In this document: positions 4,043 to 26,462 of the stretch, piece after piece
Layout: the number at the start of each line of letters is the position of its first letter
How positions within the stretch are numbered: position 1 is the first letter of the stretch
DNA from: Carboxylicivirga linearis
GTDB taxonomy: Bacteria; Bacteroidota; Bacteroidia; Bacteroidales; Marinilabiliaceae
DNA: 32,190 nt
Direction: 5' to 3'
Assembly: GCF_018271995.1 (NCBI RefSeq)
Contig: NZ_JAGUCO010000036.1
Coordinates: forward strand, 1 to 32,190
Position numbers and translations under genes: made by a program
Notes under the pieces: model-generated
Databases searched by the model: none
The model's input: the letters and a program-made list of their open reading frames with translations, nothing else
Told to the model about the DNA's origin: nothing

Positions 4043-5059
4043 TTACAGATGATCGATTACGGGCCAGCCATCAACCCATTTCATTTCCTTAATCAATAGC
4101 TTCGAAGCTCCGTTGTTCTGTCTGTCGTAGCCATGATATACCAGAATATCTTTGCCATCGATATGGGCTGCTCCGTTATGTCCCACGCCTGCCCAGCGAT
4201 CGTTACCTTGCAATAAAATGGTACCGCCACCTTTATCCATTCGTTTACCTTCTTTATCGAGGTAAGGCCCCTGTATGGTTTTCGATCGTCCTATAATTAT
4301 TTTATAAGTGCTGTTCATGCCCCGGCAACAAAAATCAATGGAAGCAAACAGGTAGTAATAGTCGCCTTTTTGATAGATGAATGGTGCTTCAATACTGTTT
4401 TCTCTTCGATCCTCATCACTGGTGCGACGCGAGGCAATGGTGGCAAAGGTATTAATATCCTGGGCTGGCGAAAGACCATCGTCGCTCAGTTGTACCAATT
4501 GTAATCCGCCCCAGAACGAACCGAACGAAAGCCATGGAGCATCGTTTTCATCCAAAATGAGATTACCATCAATGGCATTCCAGTTGGTTTTACCCGGAAA
4601 GGATTGAATTACTTTTCCATGATCTACCCATTTAAAATCTGGGTCGGAGGGATGCAGTGTTTTATTGGTTGCAACGCCTATGCATGAAGTGTTTTTACCA
4701 AAGGCCGAAACCGAATAATACAAGTAGTATTGTCCATTAAAATAGCTAATGTCTGGTGCCCAGGTATGGCCACGATATTCGGGAATAGCCTCGGTAGCCC
4801 ATTTTGGAGCTTCGGCAAAAACCGGTTTTTCGATGGTCCAGTTTTCCATATCGGTAGATGAAATAACGCTAATACCAAAGCCTGTGGCAAAAACATAGTA
4901 AACCGAATCTTGCTTGATAATAACCGGGTCGTGTGATCGTATGGAATCCAGAGGGAAGGTTTTGCCGGTTAAATCACGAAAGTGTCTTCGTTGCGCATTA
5001 GCTGATATAGAAAGCAACAAACTGATTATCATAATCAGTAAGAAATAAGATTTATTCAT
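4043..5059 (-). CDS. GH43 family glycosidase (probable arabinan endo-1,5-alpha-L-arabinosidase)
   Basis: A secreted enzyme of 338 residues with signal peptide MNKSYFLLIMIISLLLSISA then NAQ. It has the five-bladed propeller signature of GH43: general base Asp44 in RSHDPVII, pKa-modulating Asp164 in WNAIDGNLI, and general acid Glu224 in ENSIEAPFIY. GHTWAPDISYFNGQYYLYYS and the WLSFGSFWGGLQL stretch match endo-arabinanases and related alpha-L-arabinofuranosidases. It should cut arabinan or arabinoxylan side chains in the periplasm or outside the cell. An in-frame TTG at 5083 would add eight residues; ATG at 5059 is preferred because the signal peptide begins there. No SusC/SusD pair lies nearby, so it is an orphan rather than part of a visible polysaccharide locus. 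It is enclosed by the duplicated thioredoxin genes. Confidence 0.88.
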   Translation of the reverse strand: MNKSYFLLIMIISLLLSISANAQRRHFRDLTGKTFPLDSIRSHDPVIIKQDSVYYVFATGFGISVISSTDMENWTIEKPVFAEAPKWATEAIPEYRGHTWAPDISYFNGQYYLYYSVSAFGKNTSCIGVATNKTLHPSDPDFKWVDHGKVIQSFPGKTNWNAIDGNLILDENDAPWLSFGSFWGGLQLVQLSDDGLSPAQDINTFATIASRRTSDEDRRENSIEAPFIYQKGDYYYLFASIDFCCRGMNSTYKIIIGRSKTIQGPYLDKEGKRMDKGGGTILLQGNDRWAGVGHNGAAHIDGKDILVYHGYDRQNNGASKLLIKEMKWVDGWPVIDHL

Positions 5060-5920: not shown

Positions 5921-6592
5921 CTAACGATAATGTTCACTCATAACAACCGGATACTTTTTTGTATAGTACTTGGTTATCAGCTTAGGCACAAAAAAGATTA
6001 ATATGGGTAAGAAATACGCCCAGCCGGTAATAAAAGAGAATAACAGGGTGATGATAAATGATATTGGTACTATCAAAGCCCTGCTTAAGTTATAATTAAC
6101 AATTACTTTATCAGGGTTGCTGCTTAATTTATATTTAGGGTTTCCAATAATCTTCCACAGCTTAAAACAGAAAAATCCGGCAAAACAAATATTAAAGGTG
6201 TACACCGTGAATGGTATTTTCAATGATCCGATAAAATGTTCGGTAAAGAAAGAAGTACTAAACGGCATGAGTACAATGGGCATTAGAAATAATAAATTAT
6301 TCCACAGTAGTTTTGAATTCACCGAAGTAACAAATTTAAATACACGGTGATGCGACAACCAATACATACCTATTACGAAAAAACTGACAGTAAAGCCAAT
6401 GAATTTGGGTGTCAGATTTTTTAATTCTGTCCATAAGATGGCATCTGTAATAGGTTGGATGTTTAATGCCGGCATTTTAACGTCGATAACCAGTAATGTT
6501 ATGGCAAATGCAAAAACACCGTCACTTAACGATGCCAATCTTGATACCTGAAACTCTTCTTTGTCATTGTTTTTTGTAATATACTTCTTCAT
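5921..6592 (-). CDS. TMEM175/DUF1211 family potassium-channel-like membrane protein
   Basis: A protein of 223 residues with about six membrane segments. Directly before and within the first helix is the family signature RLASLSDGVFAFAITLLVID, the bacterial TMEM175 (DUF1211) motif R-x3-(F/L)SDG-x-FAxAxTLL whose helix lines the pore. Later segments (for example FIGFTVSFFVIGMYWLSHHR, with the conserved W and HHR) also fit. Bacterial members form tetrameric K+-selective leak channels in the inner membrane. An upstream GTG at 6637 would add 15 residues; ATG at 6592 gives a cytoplasmic N-tail of normal length and is preferred. The gene stands alone; no regulator was seen. Confidence 0.85.
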   Translation of the reverse strand: MKKYITKNNDKEEFQVSRLASLSDGVFAFAITLLVIDVKMPALNIQPITDAILWTELKNLTPKFIGFTVSFFVIGMYWLSHHRVFKFVTSVNSKLLWNNLLFLMPIVLMPFSTSFFTEHFIGSLKIPFTVYTFNICFAGFFCFKLWKIIGNPKYKLSSNPDKVIVNYNLSRALIVPISFIITLLFSFITGWAYFLPILIFFVPKLITKYYTKKYPVVMSEHYR

Positions 6593-6827
6593 AGATTTAT
6601 TAGCTTGTTTATGAGATGGGTATATGTTAATACACACCGGTGTAACTCGCTCAATAGGGATGTAGCAAACTATCCCGTAATGGATTTTTTAATAAAGACT
6701 TAAAAAGATTTTTGTTAGCTGAGAATGACTATCGAAAGGATAAATGTATCAAATTCACTCAAAAAATAGAATATTCCGTAGCCATTTTTTTGAAATACTT
6801 CTTAAATGTAGTTGTGTATAGATGTAA

Positions 6828-7064
6828 AAAGAGGGTGTCCAAAAAGTGATTCTGCAAATAAGGAATCTTTCAAATGGTAACTTTACTTTCATTATACCCC
6901 ACCAAACCCTGCCTGCAGCAGGCAGACTCCCCTAAAAGGGAGGCTTAAGTCCCCTTCAGGGGAATCGAAGATCGGCAAAGCCAATTAGGGGTAACATAGA
7001 GTGATATTTTATTACAAATTGAAACAAACGTTGTTTTGATGTTTAGTTTTTGGACACCCTCTTT
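6828..7064 (+). mobile_element. MITE-like element, copy 1, with 18-bp terminal inverted repeats
   Basis: The 237-bp unit is bounded by perfect 18-bp inverted repeats: AAAGAGGGTGTCCAAAAA at 6828-6845 and its complement at 7047-7064. It has no coding capacity. Inside are several G/C-rich hairpins (CTGCCTGCAGCAGGCAG, and CCCCT...AGGGG pairs). A diverged copy in the opposite orientation lies at 24494-24712. This is the structure of a non-autonomous transposable element or highly structured genomic repeat. Confidence 0.8.
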
Positions 7065-7099
7065 CAAATGATAGTATATAATTGAGCAATAAATTTACT

Positions 7100-7335
7100 A
7101 GTAATGCGAATCAACAGTTGAACCCACTTTGGGGTTCCTTTATAATACGCTCATATTCCACGGGTTCCACCCGTGGCTATTCTTATTAAATCCTTTCAGG
7201 ATTTGAAAATGTCTAAAGGACATTAACAATAATAGCCTCGTATGGAGCGCGGGGTGACTATTTGACTAATGATACAACCCCGAAAGTGGGTTGAACTTTG
7301 CTATATAACAATTTGAACTATTGATTCGCATTAGT
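7100..7335. repeat. Structured inverted-repeat element overlapping the xusC-like stop codon
   Basis: TAATGCGAATCA at 7102-7113 is repeated as its exact complement at 7322-7333. Inside lies a second pair, GTTGAACCCACTTT (7117-7130) with AAAGTGGGTTGAAC (7283-7296, 13 of 14 bases pairing), continuing into GGGGTT/AACCCC. Between them are small hairpins: CCACGGGT/ACCCGTGG near 7157-7175, AATCCTTTCAGGATT and ATGTCTAAAGGACAT. The whole can fold as one long branched stem and has no coding frame. Its right arm supplies the stop codon of the neighbouring gene. Confidence 0.7.
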
Positions 7336-8545
7336 AATTCACACGTATCTTTTTAATCCACATTATATATCCGCTAATGGGGAGGTAGGCTGCAAACAAA
7401 GCCAATAAGAAATACAGAAATTTGGATTTCAGACCTAATATTTCACCGGTATGGAGGCTTTTTATCAGTGACCTTACCTTTTGAGCTGTTGTTTTATCCG
7501 ACCATAATTTGGTTTCTTTATACTTACCTGTTTCATCAAAGGTAATGTCGTCGTGTAATACAGCACCTAAAAAGCTTTTTGTATTGGTTTTACGAATGGT
7601 AATATCCGAAAAGTGATGCCCCGGAAAAACAAAATTAATATCTCCTTTGTAATTGAGTTTTTGTTGAGCGGCATCAAGCATTACCTCATAATTGATAGTG
7701 GTAAATATACTATCGTTAATGTTTTTTGGGGGGCGGCGCTGCTTTGATCCAGGATTGTTTTTAGCCATTTTTTCTCTTTCGATCTTTTGCTGTTTGGCTT
7801 CTTCTTTTTCTGTTTTAGTCTGAAAAATACCGATGGTTACTTCTCGCACTGTAGGATAAGTGAAGTAGATACCAGTCCAGGTTATTAACAGCAAGCCAAT
7901 AGAGGCCATAGCGCCAAAGTTAATATGAAAGTCACGGTTAAATACCTGAAATCCATATTTGAGCCGGGCATTAAACTTGTTTTTAAAAGGTTTTTTCTTG
8001 CCCTTGATGGGCCACCATAAAACAATACCTGAAATAATAAAGAACAAAAAGCCTACTGTAGCTCCTCCAACAATCTGCTTGTAGAATTGAACATTTTCGG
8101 CATTGAACCATCTGTGCAAACGAAAGATAGTCCAGAAAAACTCACTAACACCAGAAGAGGCGGTTCCTACTATTTCGCCTGTTTCTCTATCGGCAAAGGC
8201 AATCACCTGCTTTGAGCCTCGTCCACCACCAATAATTCTAATGTTTTTATCATTTTCCTCAGGAATTACAAAGCGGGAAGGGTTGGTATGATACTCATTA
8301 ATAAAATGGGTGGCTACTAATTTTAAAGAAGCTTTCTTATCGGTCTCTTTATCGCGATTAATGAATTGGCGAGCACTAAAATCTTCTATCTCGGTTTTAA
8401 AAACATAAATAGCTCCGGTTGCAGCAATAAATGTTATTACTAAACCAATACAAATTCCTCCCCACATGTGGAGGAGGAATAAGATGTATTTTATGATATT
8501 TTCGTTTTTCCTTCGCTTTCGGAAAAGCGCATGTAAAATATTCAT
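7331..8545 (-). CDS. xusC: PepSY-associated TM protein, XusC-like (putative siderophore iron reductase)
   Basis: A 404-residue inner-membrane protein of the PepSY_TM family. The first membrane segment (about residues 20-48) carries LLHMWGGICIGLVITFIAATG, whose histidine is conserved in the family. A PepSY-like periplasmic domain with FWTIFRLHRWF follows. Further segments lie near 160-182 and 210-232, a second periplasmic domain includes GHHFSDITIRKT, and a last segment includes SLHTGEILGLKSKFLYFLLA. Family members such as Pseudomonas FoxB are heme-containing reductases that release iron from siderophores; that activity is inferred here. It is the third gene of a receptor-lipoprotein-PepSY operon in the order of Bacteroides xusABC, 65 bases after the second gene. 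The TAA stop lies inside a repeat arm, so the last residues may have been altered by insertion. Confidence 0.82.
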   Translation of the reverse strand: MNILHALFRKRRKNENIIKYILFLLHMWGGICIGLVITFIAATGAIYVFKTEIEDFSARQFINRDKETDKKASLKLVATHFINEYHTNPSRFVIPEENDKNIRIIGGGRGSKQVIAFADRETGEIVGTASSGVSEFFWTIFRLHRWFNAENVQFYKQIVGGATVGFLFFIISGIVLWWPIKGKKKPFKNKFNARLKYGFQVFNRDFHINFGAMASIGLLLITWTGIYFTYPTVREVTIGIFQTKTEKEEAKQQKIEREKMAKNNPGSKQRRPPKNINDSIFTTINYEVMLDAAQQKLNYKGDINFVFPGHHFSDITIRKTNTKSFLGAVLHDDITFDETGKYKETKLWSDKTTAQKVRSLIKSLHTGEILGLKSKFLYFLLALFAAYLPISGYIMWIKKIRVNY

Positions 8546-25258: not shown

Positions 25259-25498
25259 TTTGTTTTTGATTATTGTTAGTGTTCATTCAATGTTGAATGA
25301 ATCTACAAAAGTATTAAAATCTTAAATTTCATCAATAATTAGGATCCTTTGTTTAACAAACGCAGCAACTATCTAATTGTTTTATAAAGTTGGTTTAAAA
25401 AAACAATTATGCCAGAGTACATAAGATATAGAGCCTGTTTTGAGTTTTAAATTCTATTTACCATAAATTAACAATTGAAGCCTAGAGAAGAGATTTTT

Positions 25499-25515
25499 TT
25501 GGCACAGATATTGGA
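25499..25515 (+). promoter_or_regulatory. Sigma-54-like promoter A
   Basis: TTGGCACAGATATTGGA matches the sigma-54 form TGGCAC-N5-TTGC at the -24 element exactly. At -12 it has GG in place of GC. The GG-N10-GG spacing is right, and the predicted start (near 25526) falls at the first base of the block conserved with copy B. Confidence 0.5.
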
Positions 25516-25526
25516 TATAGGTAAAT

Positions 25527-25596
25527 GATTTTTTTTCATAGATTTGGGTTAGGTTAGTAAAAGGATTTCATGCAACGGTATGAAATCCTTTTTTTT
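25527..25596 (+). ncRNA. Predicted sigma-54-dependent small RNA A (about 70 nt)
   Basis: The unit starts GATTTTTTTTCATAGATTTG, continues GGTTAGGTTAGT, and closes with hairpin GGATTTCATGC-AACG-GTATGAAATCC plus an eight-base T-run. The first 32 bases are identical to those of copy B at 26391. The stem differs from B by one compensatory pair (T-A against C-G) and several G-T tolerant changes, so pairing is kept. No reading frame fits. It lies in the spacer between the barrel gene and the DJ-1 gene, ending about 10 bases before the DJ-1 stop on the opposite strand. Transcription and function are inferred. As a simpler alternative, the hairpin may be only a convergent terminator. Confidence 0.55.
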
Positions 25597-25604
25597 ATTG
25601 TATG

Positions 25605-26153
25605 TTACTGAACAAACATTTTGTCTGCCACTTCTTTAGCCTTTTCTGTACCAGATAGTATCTCAACTAATTGTAAAGCAAAAGCCATTGAGGCACCGGC
25701 TGCTTTTCCGGTTATTAGTTGTCCATCAACTTCGGTAGGATTACCTGTGTATTCGGCTTCAGTTAATTGATCTTCAAAACCGGGGTAACAAGTAACTTTT
25801 TTATTTTTTGCCAAACCTAACGATCCAGGTACAATAGGAGCAGCGCATATGGCTCCAATAAACTTTCCTTCCTCCGCAAATTTCTGTAATACCTCATTTA
25901 ATGGTTTGTGCTCTTTCAGGTTTATGGCACCAGGTATTCCTCCGGGAAGAACCGCGCATGTAAAATCATCAAAATTCACATCATCAAAAGCTTTATCTGC
26001 TTTAACAACTATCTGATGTGATCCGGTAACTTCCAGTGAATTACTTATTGATATAGTGCTAACCTTAATATCAGCTCTGCGCAGGACGTCTACAGGTGTA
26101 AGAGCTTCAATTTCTTCAAATCCATCGGCTAAAAAAAGTGCTACATGTTCCAT
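25605..26153 (-). CDS. DJ-1/PfpI family protein
   Basis: A 182-residue cytoplasmic protein of the DJ-1 clade. The nucleophile Cys103 lies in GAICAAP, and the conserved Glu16 sits in DGFEEIEALTP. The family segments DDFTCAVLPGGIPGA and TCYPGFEDQL, and GKAAGASMAFALQLVE near the end, are present. Members are stress-response proteins reported to act as protein/nucleotide deglycases or glyoxalases; which applies here is unknown. It starts at ATG 26153. It stands between the two predicted sigma-54-type small RNAs, both on the opposite strand. Confidence 0.9.
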   Translation of the reverse strand: MEHVALFLADGFEEIEALTPVDVLRRADIKVSTISISNSLEVTGSHQIVVKADKAFDDVNFDDFTCAVLPGGIPGAINLKEHKPLNEVLQKFAEEGKFIGAICAAPIVPGSLGLAKNKKVTCYPGFEDQLTEAEYTGNPTEVDGQLITGKAAGASMAFALQLVEILSGTEKAKEVADKMFVQ

Positions 26154-26361
26154 TTTTATTCTCTTTTATGAATTCTTAAAAGTAGATAATCTAACTGAGT
26201 ATGTAAAGTGTGCTTTTTAGTTCATTATTATAAACTGTGCGTAAATAAACAGTTAGTAATAAATATTGGTGTTGAGGTGTTATAGTACGCAGAAAGAAGT
26301 AGGATGGGAGTAAATAATTTAAAATTATTATTAACATATAATAACAAAAACGTCAGGTGTT

Positions 26362-26378
26362 TTGGCACAGAACTTGCA
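26362..26378 (+). promoter_or_regulatory. Sigma-54-like promoter B
   Basis: TTGGCACAGAACTTGCA fits the sigma-54 consensus closely: TGGCAC at -24, TTGCA at -12, and GG-N10-GC spacing. The predicted start, 12-14 bases on, coincides with the conserved GATTTTTTTT at 26391. No activator-binding site was identified upstream. Confidence 0.7.
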
Positions 26379-26390
26379 ATTTACCTATCA

Positions 26391-26462
26391 GATTTTTTTT
26401 CATAGATTTGGGTTAGGTTAGTGAAGGGATTCCACGCAAAGGCATGGGATCCTTTCTTTTTT
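26391..26462 (+). ncRNA. Predicted sigma-54-dependent small RNA B (about 72 nt)
   Basis: This is the second copy of the unit described at 25527. Its first 32 bases are identical, including ATAGATTTGGGTTAGGTTAG. The hairpin is GGATTCCACGC-AAAG-GCATGGGATCC with one mismatch and one wobble, followed by CTTTTTT. The promoter fits sigma-54 better than in copy A. The 3' end meets the helicase stop codon on the opposite strand. The copies lie 864 bases apart in the same direction, one on each side of the DJ-1 gene. Confidence 0.6.

Follow-up and report, generated by a model that had tools for sequence, protein, structure and literature searches.

What are the two short plus-strand units that lie on either side of a DJ-1/PfpI-family gene in Carboxylicivirga linearis, which polymerase would transcribe them and on what would their products act? 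The window, i.e. the whole stretch of DNA analysed here (32,190 nucleotides), was read directly, and this reading confirmed the layout given in the initial annotation: two plus-strand units, 864 bases apart, with a shared block and a hairpin. Both carry TGGCAC-N5-TTG(C/G), a 32-base identical block (GATTTTTTTTCATAGATTTGGGTTAGGTTAGT, beginning at 25527 and 26391) and a terminator hairpin, which together with its T-run finishes about 70 bases past the start of the block (Table 1). TTGGCACAGA stands at 25499 in unit 1 and at 26362 in unit 2. The accompanying -12 element, also claimed earlier, is sound in unit 2 (TTGC) and weak in unit 1, where the non-consensus TTGG has GG instead of GC. Unit 1 has the 3' end of the DJ-1-family gene on one side and, on the other, the start of a gene that has no Pfam match; on the two sides of unit 2 are the start of the DJ-1 gene and the end of a gene for a UvrD-like helicase. 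DJ-1 homologues (60-74% identical) adjoin sRNA copies in all three relatives read there (G001, G004 and G032); in G001 two copies flank the gene, the same as in the window, and G032 belongs to another genus.

Table 1. Positions in the window of the two units, their predicted parts and the gene between them
Feature	Coordinates	Strand	Remark
Unit 1, single TTAAC half of the upstream candidate operator	25468..25472	+	position agrees with the family array
Unit 1, -24/-12 sigma-54-type promoter (TTGGCAC..TTGG; weak -12)	25499..25514	+	read; pattern match
Predicted sRNA 1	25527..25597	+	start inferred at about 25526-25528
sRNA 1, invariant 5' seed (TTTTTTCATAGATTTGGGTTAGGTTA)	25531..25556	+	
sRNA 1, intrinsic terminator hairpin and T-run	25559..25597	+	
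DJ-1/PfpI-family gene between both sRNAs	25605..26153	-	
Unit 2, phased candidate operator TAAC-N6-TAAC	26332..26345	+	
Unit 2, -24/-12 sigma-54-type promoter (TTGGCACAGAACTTGCA)	26362..26378	+	
Predicted sRNA 2	26390..26462	+	start inferred at about 26389-26391
sRNA 2, invariant 5' seed	26395..26420	+	
sRNA 2, intrinsic terminator hairpin and T-run	26423..26462	+	

The description of these units as a two-copy family proved too narrow. The 26-base core occurs five times in the 6.05-Mb genome, all of them exact with up to three mismatches allowed (reversed-pattern controls: 0), the pattern of -24/-12 plus seed occurs at six places, and the family covariance model finds the same six and a seventh, with CAAGA instead of CATAGA and likewise with TGGCAC-N5-TTGCA. 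The genome holds seven sigma-54-type units and at least five related units with other promoters. One match on contig C33, first taken as an sRNA copy, is the start of a GH127 mRNA; it was dropped from the family and retained as a predicted target. Among 100 relatives the -24/-12-plus-seed pattern was found at 60 places in 20 genomes, with none in the reversed controls. The matching genomes are 13 of the 14 in the genus (the C. linearis genome counted) and seven in other genera of Marinilabiliaceae; in G012, of the same genus, the sigma-54 pattern finds no unit. The 28 named stretches that contain the exact core come from Carboxylicivirga (14), Marinilabiliaceae (8) and Bacteroidales (3), with one each from Saccharicrinis, Breznakibacter and Chlorobiota. 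Applied to 295 genomes of the order, the covariance model has matches in 6 at E 0.001.

Comparison of the copies supports the earlier claim that both units are sRNA genes, about 70 nt long, with a 5' seed followed by a terminator. None of 200 shuffles folds as stably as unit 1 (-17.5 kcal/mol) or unit 2 (-21.0 kcal/mol); the 5' block is mostly unpaired in the centroid fold and forms a weak 5' helix in the minimum free energy fold. The alignment, which comprises 53 of the 56 distinct transcripts (in five of these the 3' end was trimmed), has invariant seed core columns in all 53 sequences and a hairpin that varies with compensation: two-sided compensatory cells number 161 vs 52 in shuffles, paired cells amount to 87.2% vs 60.6%, and both figures fall when the stem partners are slid. 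The covariation claim rests on these cell counts and not on the number of pairs with any two-sided change, which is weak and not distinctive by itself (11/11 vs 9.7 in shuffles; 49/500). The loop AACG is retained in 45 of the 53 hairpins while the stems vary, and it could be a contact site for a protein or an RNA. Since there are many copies per genome, some in tandem, one might think of a dispersed repeat, terminator-like or mobile, that does not act as a regulatory RNA. We find this explanation scarcely credible, as the seed is invariant while the stems change with compensation, promoter and operator stand at fixed places, neighbours are conserved between species with the DJ-1 locus recurring in another genus, and the phage and viral collections searched gave no match (distant blastn with 111 bases; exact 25-mer).

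At the gathering threshold Rfam reports nothing in the window. The Rfam check proposed in the annotation did bear fruit in a permissive search, which gave full-length matches to FopS (RF04319) at both units, 25529-25597 with 27.2 bits and 26393-26462 with 22.5 bits, below the cut-off of 56. This cut-off is reached nowhere in the genome; its matches have 22.5-30.1 bits over the full length (1-71) and lie in four of eight genome loci, with none at L006, L007, L010 and L025, of which L010 is not an sRNA. RF04319 matches at E of 0.1 or lower occur in 28 of 40 relatives, where about four are expected by chance, and exceed the cut-off in two; among 14 named control genomes only Bacteroides ihuae has a match. 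Places matched by both the family model and RF04319 were found in G014 (two on C26; RF04319 E-values 7e-4 to 8e-4), G015 (two on C9; 0.04 to 0.06) and G019 (C2; 0.024).

The known FopS design of Bacteroides had been overlooked in the annotation. As described in the consulted part of PMC11697453, sigma-ABfr (housekeeping) promoters drive the FopS sRNAs of B. thetaiotaomicron, which act at the start codon to repress susC-type mRNAs and have RbpB as their antagonist; PMC12119571, consulted to a similar extent, also treats FopS and RbpB. The window units share with FopS, as portrayed there (RF04319; PMC11697453), a length of about 70 nt, many paralogs per genome (here the seven sigma-54-type units and at least five others), a direct intrinsic terminator, a single-stranded U-rich 5' seed with CAU and a AGGUUAAUAAAA-like tail. 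FopS seeds lie on the start regions of susC and glycoside-hydrolase mRNAs; for the window units such pairing is predicted, with an excess at susC starts in three genomes that weakens when the U-run is left out. They differ from FopS in staying below the Rfam cut-off, in their seed (AGAUUUGGGUUAGGUUA), in the conserved AACG loop, which is absent from the printed FopS consensus, and upstream, where the branch of the window units has a sigma-54-type instead of a sigma-ABfr promoter and an added TTAAC candidate operator. Because the full-length matches remain below the cut-off, intermediates are shared and the sigma-ABfr promoter is replaced by -24/-12 elements, the window units are FopS-like and are not filed as FopS. 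GibS of Bacteroides, according to the part of PMC7366714 consulted, has its R1 seed in common with FopS and a non-canonical promoter, PM2, and is therefore a precedent for a different promoter within the group; it differs in its 145 nt, its second seed and in PM2 having -10 and -30 boxes, not -24/-12.

The promoter was judged on units retrieved from the named genomes by the seed alone, 32 in total and 31 distinct. A score of at least 8/11 to TGGCAC-N5-TTGCA is reached by 28 of the 31, compared with 2.1% of shuffled upstreams. Scores of 10 or 11 are present in 17 units and are not attained with any other spacer between 1 and 11, and scores of 8 or more are rarer at other spacers (at most 18/31, at spacer 6). 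The exceptions are a Breznakibacter MAG with TATATTTG instead, which we take to be a housekeeping-type -7 box, a Chlorobiota MAG and one weak case. Copies of the block lacking GG-N10-GC, the observation that the annotation thought would speak against its proposal, do therefore occur in part: these 3 of 31 exact-seed units are without a good -24/-12, and relatives in the same genome have other promoters. All 60 pattern matches have a single spacing, with spacers of 5-7 allowed, and the GG-N10-GC characteristic of sigma-54 is present at this fixed spacing, in unit 1 with GG at -12. The genome encodes RpoN with all three of its Pfam domains and has 16 matches to the sigma-54-activator domain, 10 of them strong (at least 220 bits). 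In a 0.94-Mb sample of the genome, strict sigma-54 matches comprise three sRNA promoters and four others, three of which lie inside long open frames.

Judged by its sequence, the core promoter of the window units' branch is of the sigma-54 type. The RNAs might instead be read from a housekeeping sigma promoter, with the GG-N10-GC match incidental, given that known FopS use sigma-ABfr (consulted part of PMC11697453) and that class-2 relatives have TAnnTTTG-like boxes; we regard this as improbable, since no TAnnTTTG was found before units 1 and 2 when the window was read and the letters and spacing of -24/-12 are kept where the flanks differ. Sigma-54-type transcription is the reading we retain for this branch. 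As to the claim of RpoN control, the promoter type at fixed spacing and the encoded RpoN and activators speak for it; it does not hold as a property of the whole family, as relatives in the same genome have other promoters.

Sigma-54 promoters require an AAA+ activator. At about 1.4 kb from one of the sRNA copies begins a gene for a GAF-AAA+-HTH activator (L178 on contig C104; 4605 and 6051-7607), and among the fetched stretches this linkage occurs only in C. linearis and its close relative G001, for which reason it is not used as evidence. The NifA-type enhancer TGT-N10-ACA was also tried and rejected (4 of 37 upstreams vs 3.5 expected). Sibling sRNAs read from several loci by sigma-54 and an activator are familiar from the Qrr sRNAs of Vibrio, which are Hfq-type RNAs of Gammaproteobacteria, unrelated in sequence and targets, and CrcZ/CrcY and GlmY/GlmZ are sigma-54-driven sRNAs linked to carbon or sugar metabolism, with another structure and mode of action. 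The Qrr sRNAs are also named in the discussion of PMC11697453, in its consulted part.

Relatives with other promoters were seen in the same genome, where three stand in tandem on C94 and two form a pair on C137; several class-2 relatives in Marinilabiliaceae have TAnnTTTG-like boxes. The tandem on C94 (L181, approximately 4100-4560) consists of three class-2 siblings with GGATTTAGTTA-type seeds, TTTG/nAnnTTTG-type promoters and TTAAC repeats. In G014 class-2-type copies lie about 0.5 kb or less from the ends of three contigs. A third subfamily forms conserved tandem pairs in which TTCTTCATAAGTTAGGGTTAAGGTTAGG is followed by a GGATTTTGAGTTAAGGTTAG-like seed, on C137 (L182, 9479 and 9602) and also at L288, L289, L293, L295 and L301; by eye and by script it has neither a sigma-54 nor a TAnnTTTG promoter, and its second member is repeatedly preceded by GAAC-like and GTGTT elements.

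Upstream of the promoters lies a repeat that we regard as a candidate operator. In 37 of 49 sigma-54 units, left after similar upstreams were removed and drawn from a selection that already required a -24/-12-like match, TAAC pairs at exactly 10, 20 and 30 bp number 17, 9 and 6 (0.1-0.2 expected), and the repeats usually end 47 and 57 bases before the U-run. Across 0.94 Mb of the genome there is no 10-bp preference of TAAC pairs (44, with 64 and 48 at 9 and 11 bp). The pattern of array plus sigma-54 promoter, searched in 60 genomes, occurs at 29 places, i.e. 23 sRNA units (5 read, 18 assigned by coordinates) and 6 others, against 5 in reversed controls; it rises above the reversed control only at sRNA genes, and the idea of the TTAAC array as a general regulon was rejected, the 6 other matches being close to the 5 of the control. 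Most sigma-54 units carry the TTAAC array, and some, e.g. the C115 type TGGCAGCATTATTGC, have none. This conserved TGGCAGCATTATTGC sigma-54 promoter was seen at L006 (C115) and L057, perhaps with a different activator.

The same repeats occur before housekeeping-type relatives. Among 12 deduplicated units from loci matching the family model or RF04319, called housekeeping-type by A-N2-TTTG, TAAC is present in 11, with five pairs at 10 bp vs 0.08 expected and usual ends 51 and 61 bases before the U-run. Five copies in G061, all over the FopS cut-off, have no array (one has a single TAAC). Because the housekeeping-type relatives carry the TTAAC array too, the candidate operator appears to go with the RNA and not with the sigma factor. 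The 10-bp direct-repeat form resembles the sites of OmpR-type response regulators, which we take as a lead only. Alternatively, the AAA+ activator itself might bind the TTAAC array of the sigma-54 units, the array of housekeeping-type units having another reader. This is possible though doubtful: sigma-54 promoters do need such an activator, and one copy has an activator gene nearby, yet TAAC stands in fixed register before 11 of the 12 housekeeping-type units as well, the activator neighbour is confined to C. linearis and the closely related G001, and direct repeats so near the promoter are, as far as we are aware, unusual for such activators. We prefer a separate TTAAC-binding protein, putatively the same one for both promoter types. 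Among the literature matches listed (titles and abstract openings; PMC9723704), with subscription journals mostly outside the collection, there was no report of a sigma-54 branch of FopS; the same holds for the TTAAC candidate operator among the titles and abstract openings listed for it, from a similarly limited collection. The sigma-54 branch of FopS-like sRNAs, together with the upstream TTAAC candidate operator at exact 10-bp phase, is in our assessment new.

In sequence the seed is antisense to a translation start of the Bacteroidota type (leader, AUG, AAAAAA), and its predicted pairing with susC starts favours the earlier suggestion that the block is the likely target-pairing region. The susC test covered 30 of 34 loci over the cut-off in the C. 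linearis genome and, from G011 and G023, 15 loci apiece, with the best of two candidate start codons taken and a duplex energy of -18 or lower counted as strong. Strong pairs were found for 11/30 susC starts in C. linearis (0.8 expected; reached by 0/100 and 0/200 shuffles), 8/15 in G011 (0.41 expected; 0/200 shuffled seeds as good) and 6/15 in G023, which belongs to another genus (0.33 expected; 0/200). When the U-run is removed from the class-1 seed, the excess stays in C. linearis (14/30 vs 4.0), is marginal in G011 (5/15 vs 2.3; 17/200 shuffles as good) and is lost in G023 (2/15 vs 2.1; 133/200), which indicates that part of the susC pairing signal is the generic AUGAAAAA start; mean energies are still low in G011 and G023 (equalled by 1 and 2 of 200 shuffles). 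Stripped of its U-run, the class-2 seed is significant in all three genomes (0/200 shuffles each).

For comparison with other genes we used a sample of 660, which is not random, as its stretches were chosen for sRNA copies, susC genes or pattern matches, with the exception of 20 unselected ones (326 genes). At -18, 28 of 225 other ATGAAA/ATGAAG genes pair strongly (Fisher p 0.0018 vs susC) and so do 44 of all 656 other genes (p 5e-6), among which some susC remain because the susC pattern caught only 4 genes in the sample. The unselected stretches give 10 of 96 ATGAAA/ATGAAG genes (p 0.0017) and 19 of all 326. Sampled background genes pair slightly better with true than with shuffled seeds (2/100 shuffles as low). 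The best start in the sample is that of a GH127 enzyme (-29.7), downstream of a GH42 gene (-20.2); GH27, susC, a ROK-family gene and functionally unrelated genes are also near the top. In this GH42-GH127 pair (L195 on contig C33, 6155-12254) the start region of each gene pairs with the seed, and that of GH127 is the strongest predicted target in the sample. The start region of rpoN (L241:5820-7265) pairs at -20.8 kcal/mol with the class-1 seed in the same sample, which may be chance. A search with the antisense-core pattern gave 38 matches in the genome, 11 of which are the sRNAs (reversed controls 10). Of the non-sRNA matches 20 were read: open frames of 100 codons or more begin at 11, six of these being GH127, GH27, GH42, GH43 or susC genes and one more, L226, having no Pfam match. 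Two near-perfect complements of the class-1 seed outside the sRNAs were set aside, neither starting a long open frame.

These predictions could also mean that the sigma-54 sRNAs have main targets other than susC and glycan mRNAs and that the pairing reflects the A-rich starts of secreted proteins. The U-run supplies much of the energy, the count for the seed without it is not significant in G023 and marginal in G011, other ATGAAR genes pair as well and unrelated starts rank high; the excess of susC over those other ATGAAR genes and the significance of the U-less class-2 seed in three genomes make this explanation unlikely, if less so than a repeat or a housekeeping promoter. We therefore keep to susC and glycoside-hydrolase mRNAs as the main predicted targets, and the sRNAs of the family probably switch off sugar-uptake genes.

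From all these results we can propose, with considerable confidence, that the units encode trans-acting sRNAs of about 70 nt built like FopS, driven by sigma-54 under a joint operator and repressing the translation of susC and glycoside-hydrolase mRNAs. The siblings would be transcribed together by an RpoN-containing RNA polymerase that an AAA+ activator opens, and one putative TTAAC-binding protein would tune their transcription. In susC-type and glycoside-hydrolase mRNAs the seed 5'-UUUUUUCAUAGAUUUGGGUUAGGUUA would form a duplex that spans the start codon, with CAU on AUG, the U-run on the following AAAAAA and the remainder on the leader, so that the effect on targets is expected to depend on the seed stretch CAUAGAUUUGGG. 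Such pairing would block translation initiation and therefore, in our proposal, hold down glycan-uptake operons when the signal is on. The genome has one RRM_1 match, and this single RRM protein may take the part of RbpB. Because housekeeping-type sisters have this operator too, at a distance that is almost unchanged, the core promoter has apparently been exchanged while operator and RNA were kept. Whether this amounts to a natural core-promoter exchange in Marinilabiliaceae, with the TTAAC operator kept, members of housekeeping or sigma-54 type, one regulator acting with both holoenzymes and the repression of glycan uptake placed under an ATP-driven activator, is to us an evenly balanced matter.

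The FopS-type sRNAs of Bacteroidaceae act post-transcriptionally as a brake that restrains glycan uptake, and they have one promoter type, as presented in the consulted part of PMC11697453. A sigma-54 branch outside Bacteroidaceae would give the FopS layout a wider reach and show that another sigma factor can be put in control of the brake, a possibility that the discussion of that paper, in its consulted part, raises for sibling sRNAs in general. The phased candidate operator would be a direct handle for finding the regulator, and if one regulator does serve both promoter classes, these sRNA genes would offer a compact natural system for studying how it does so.
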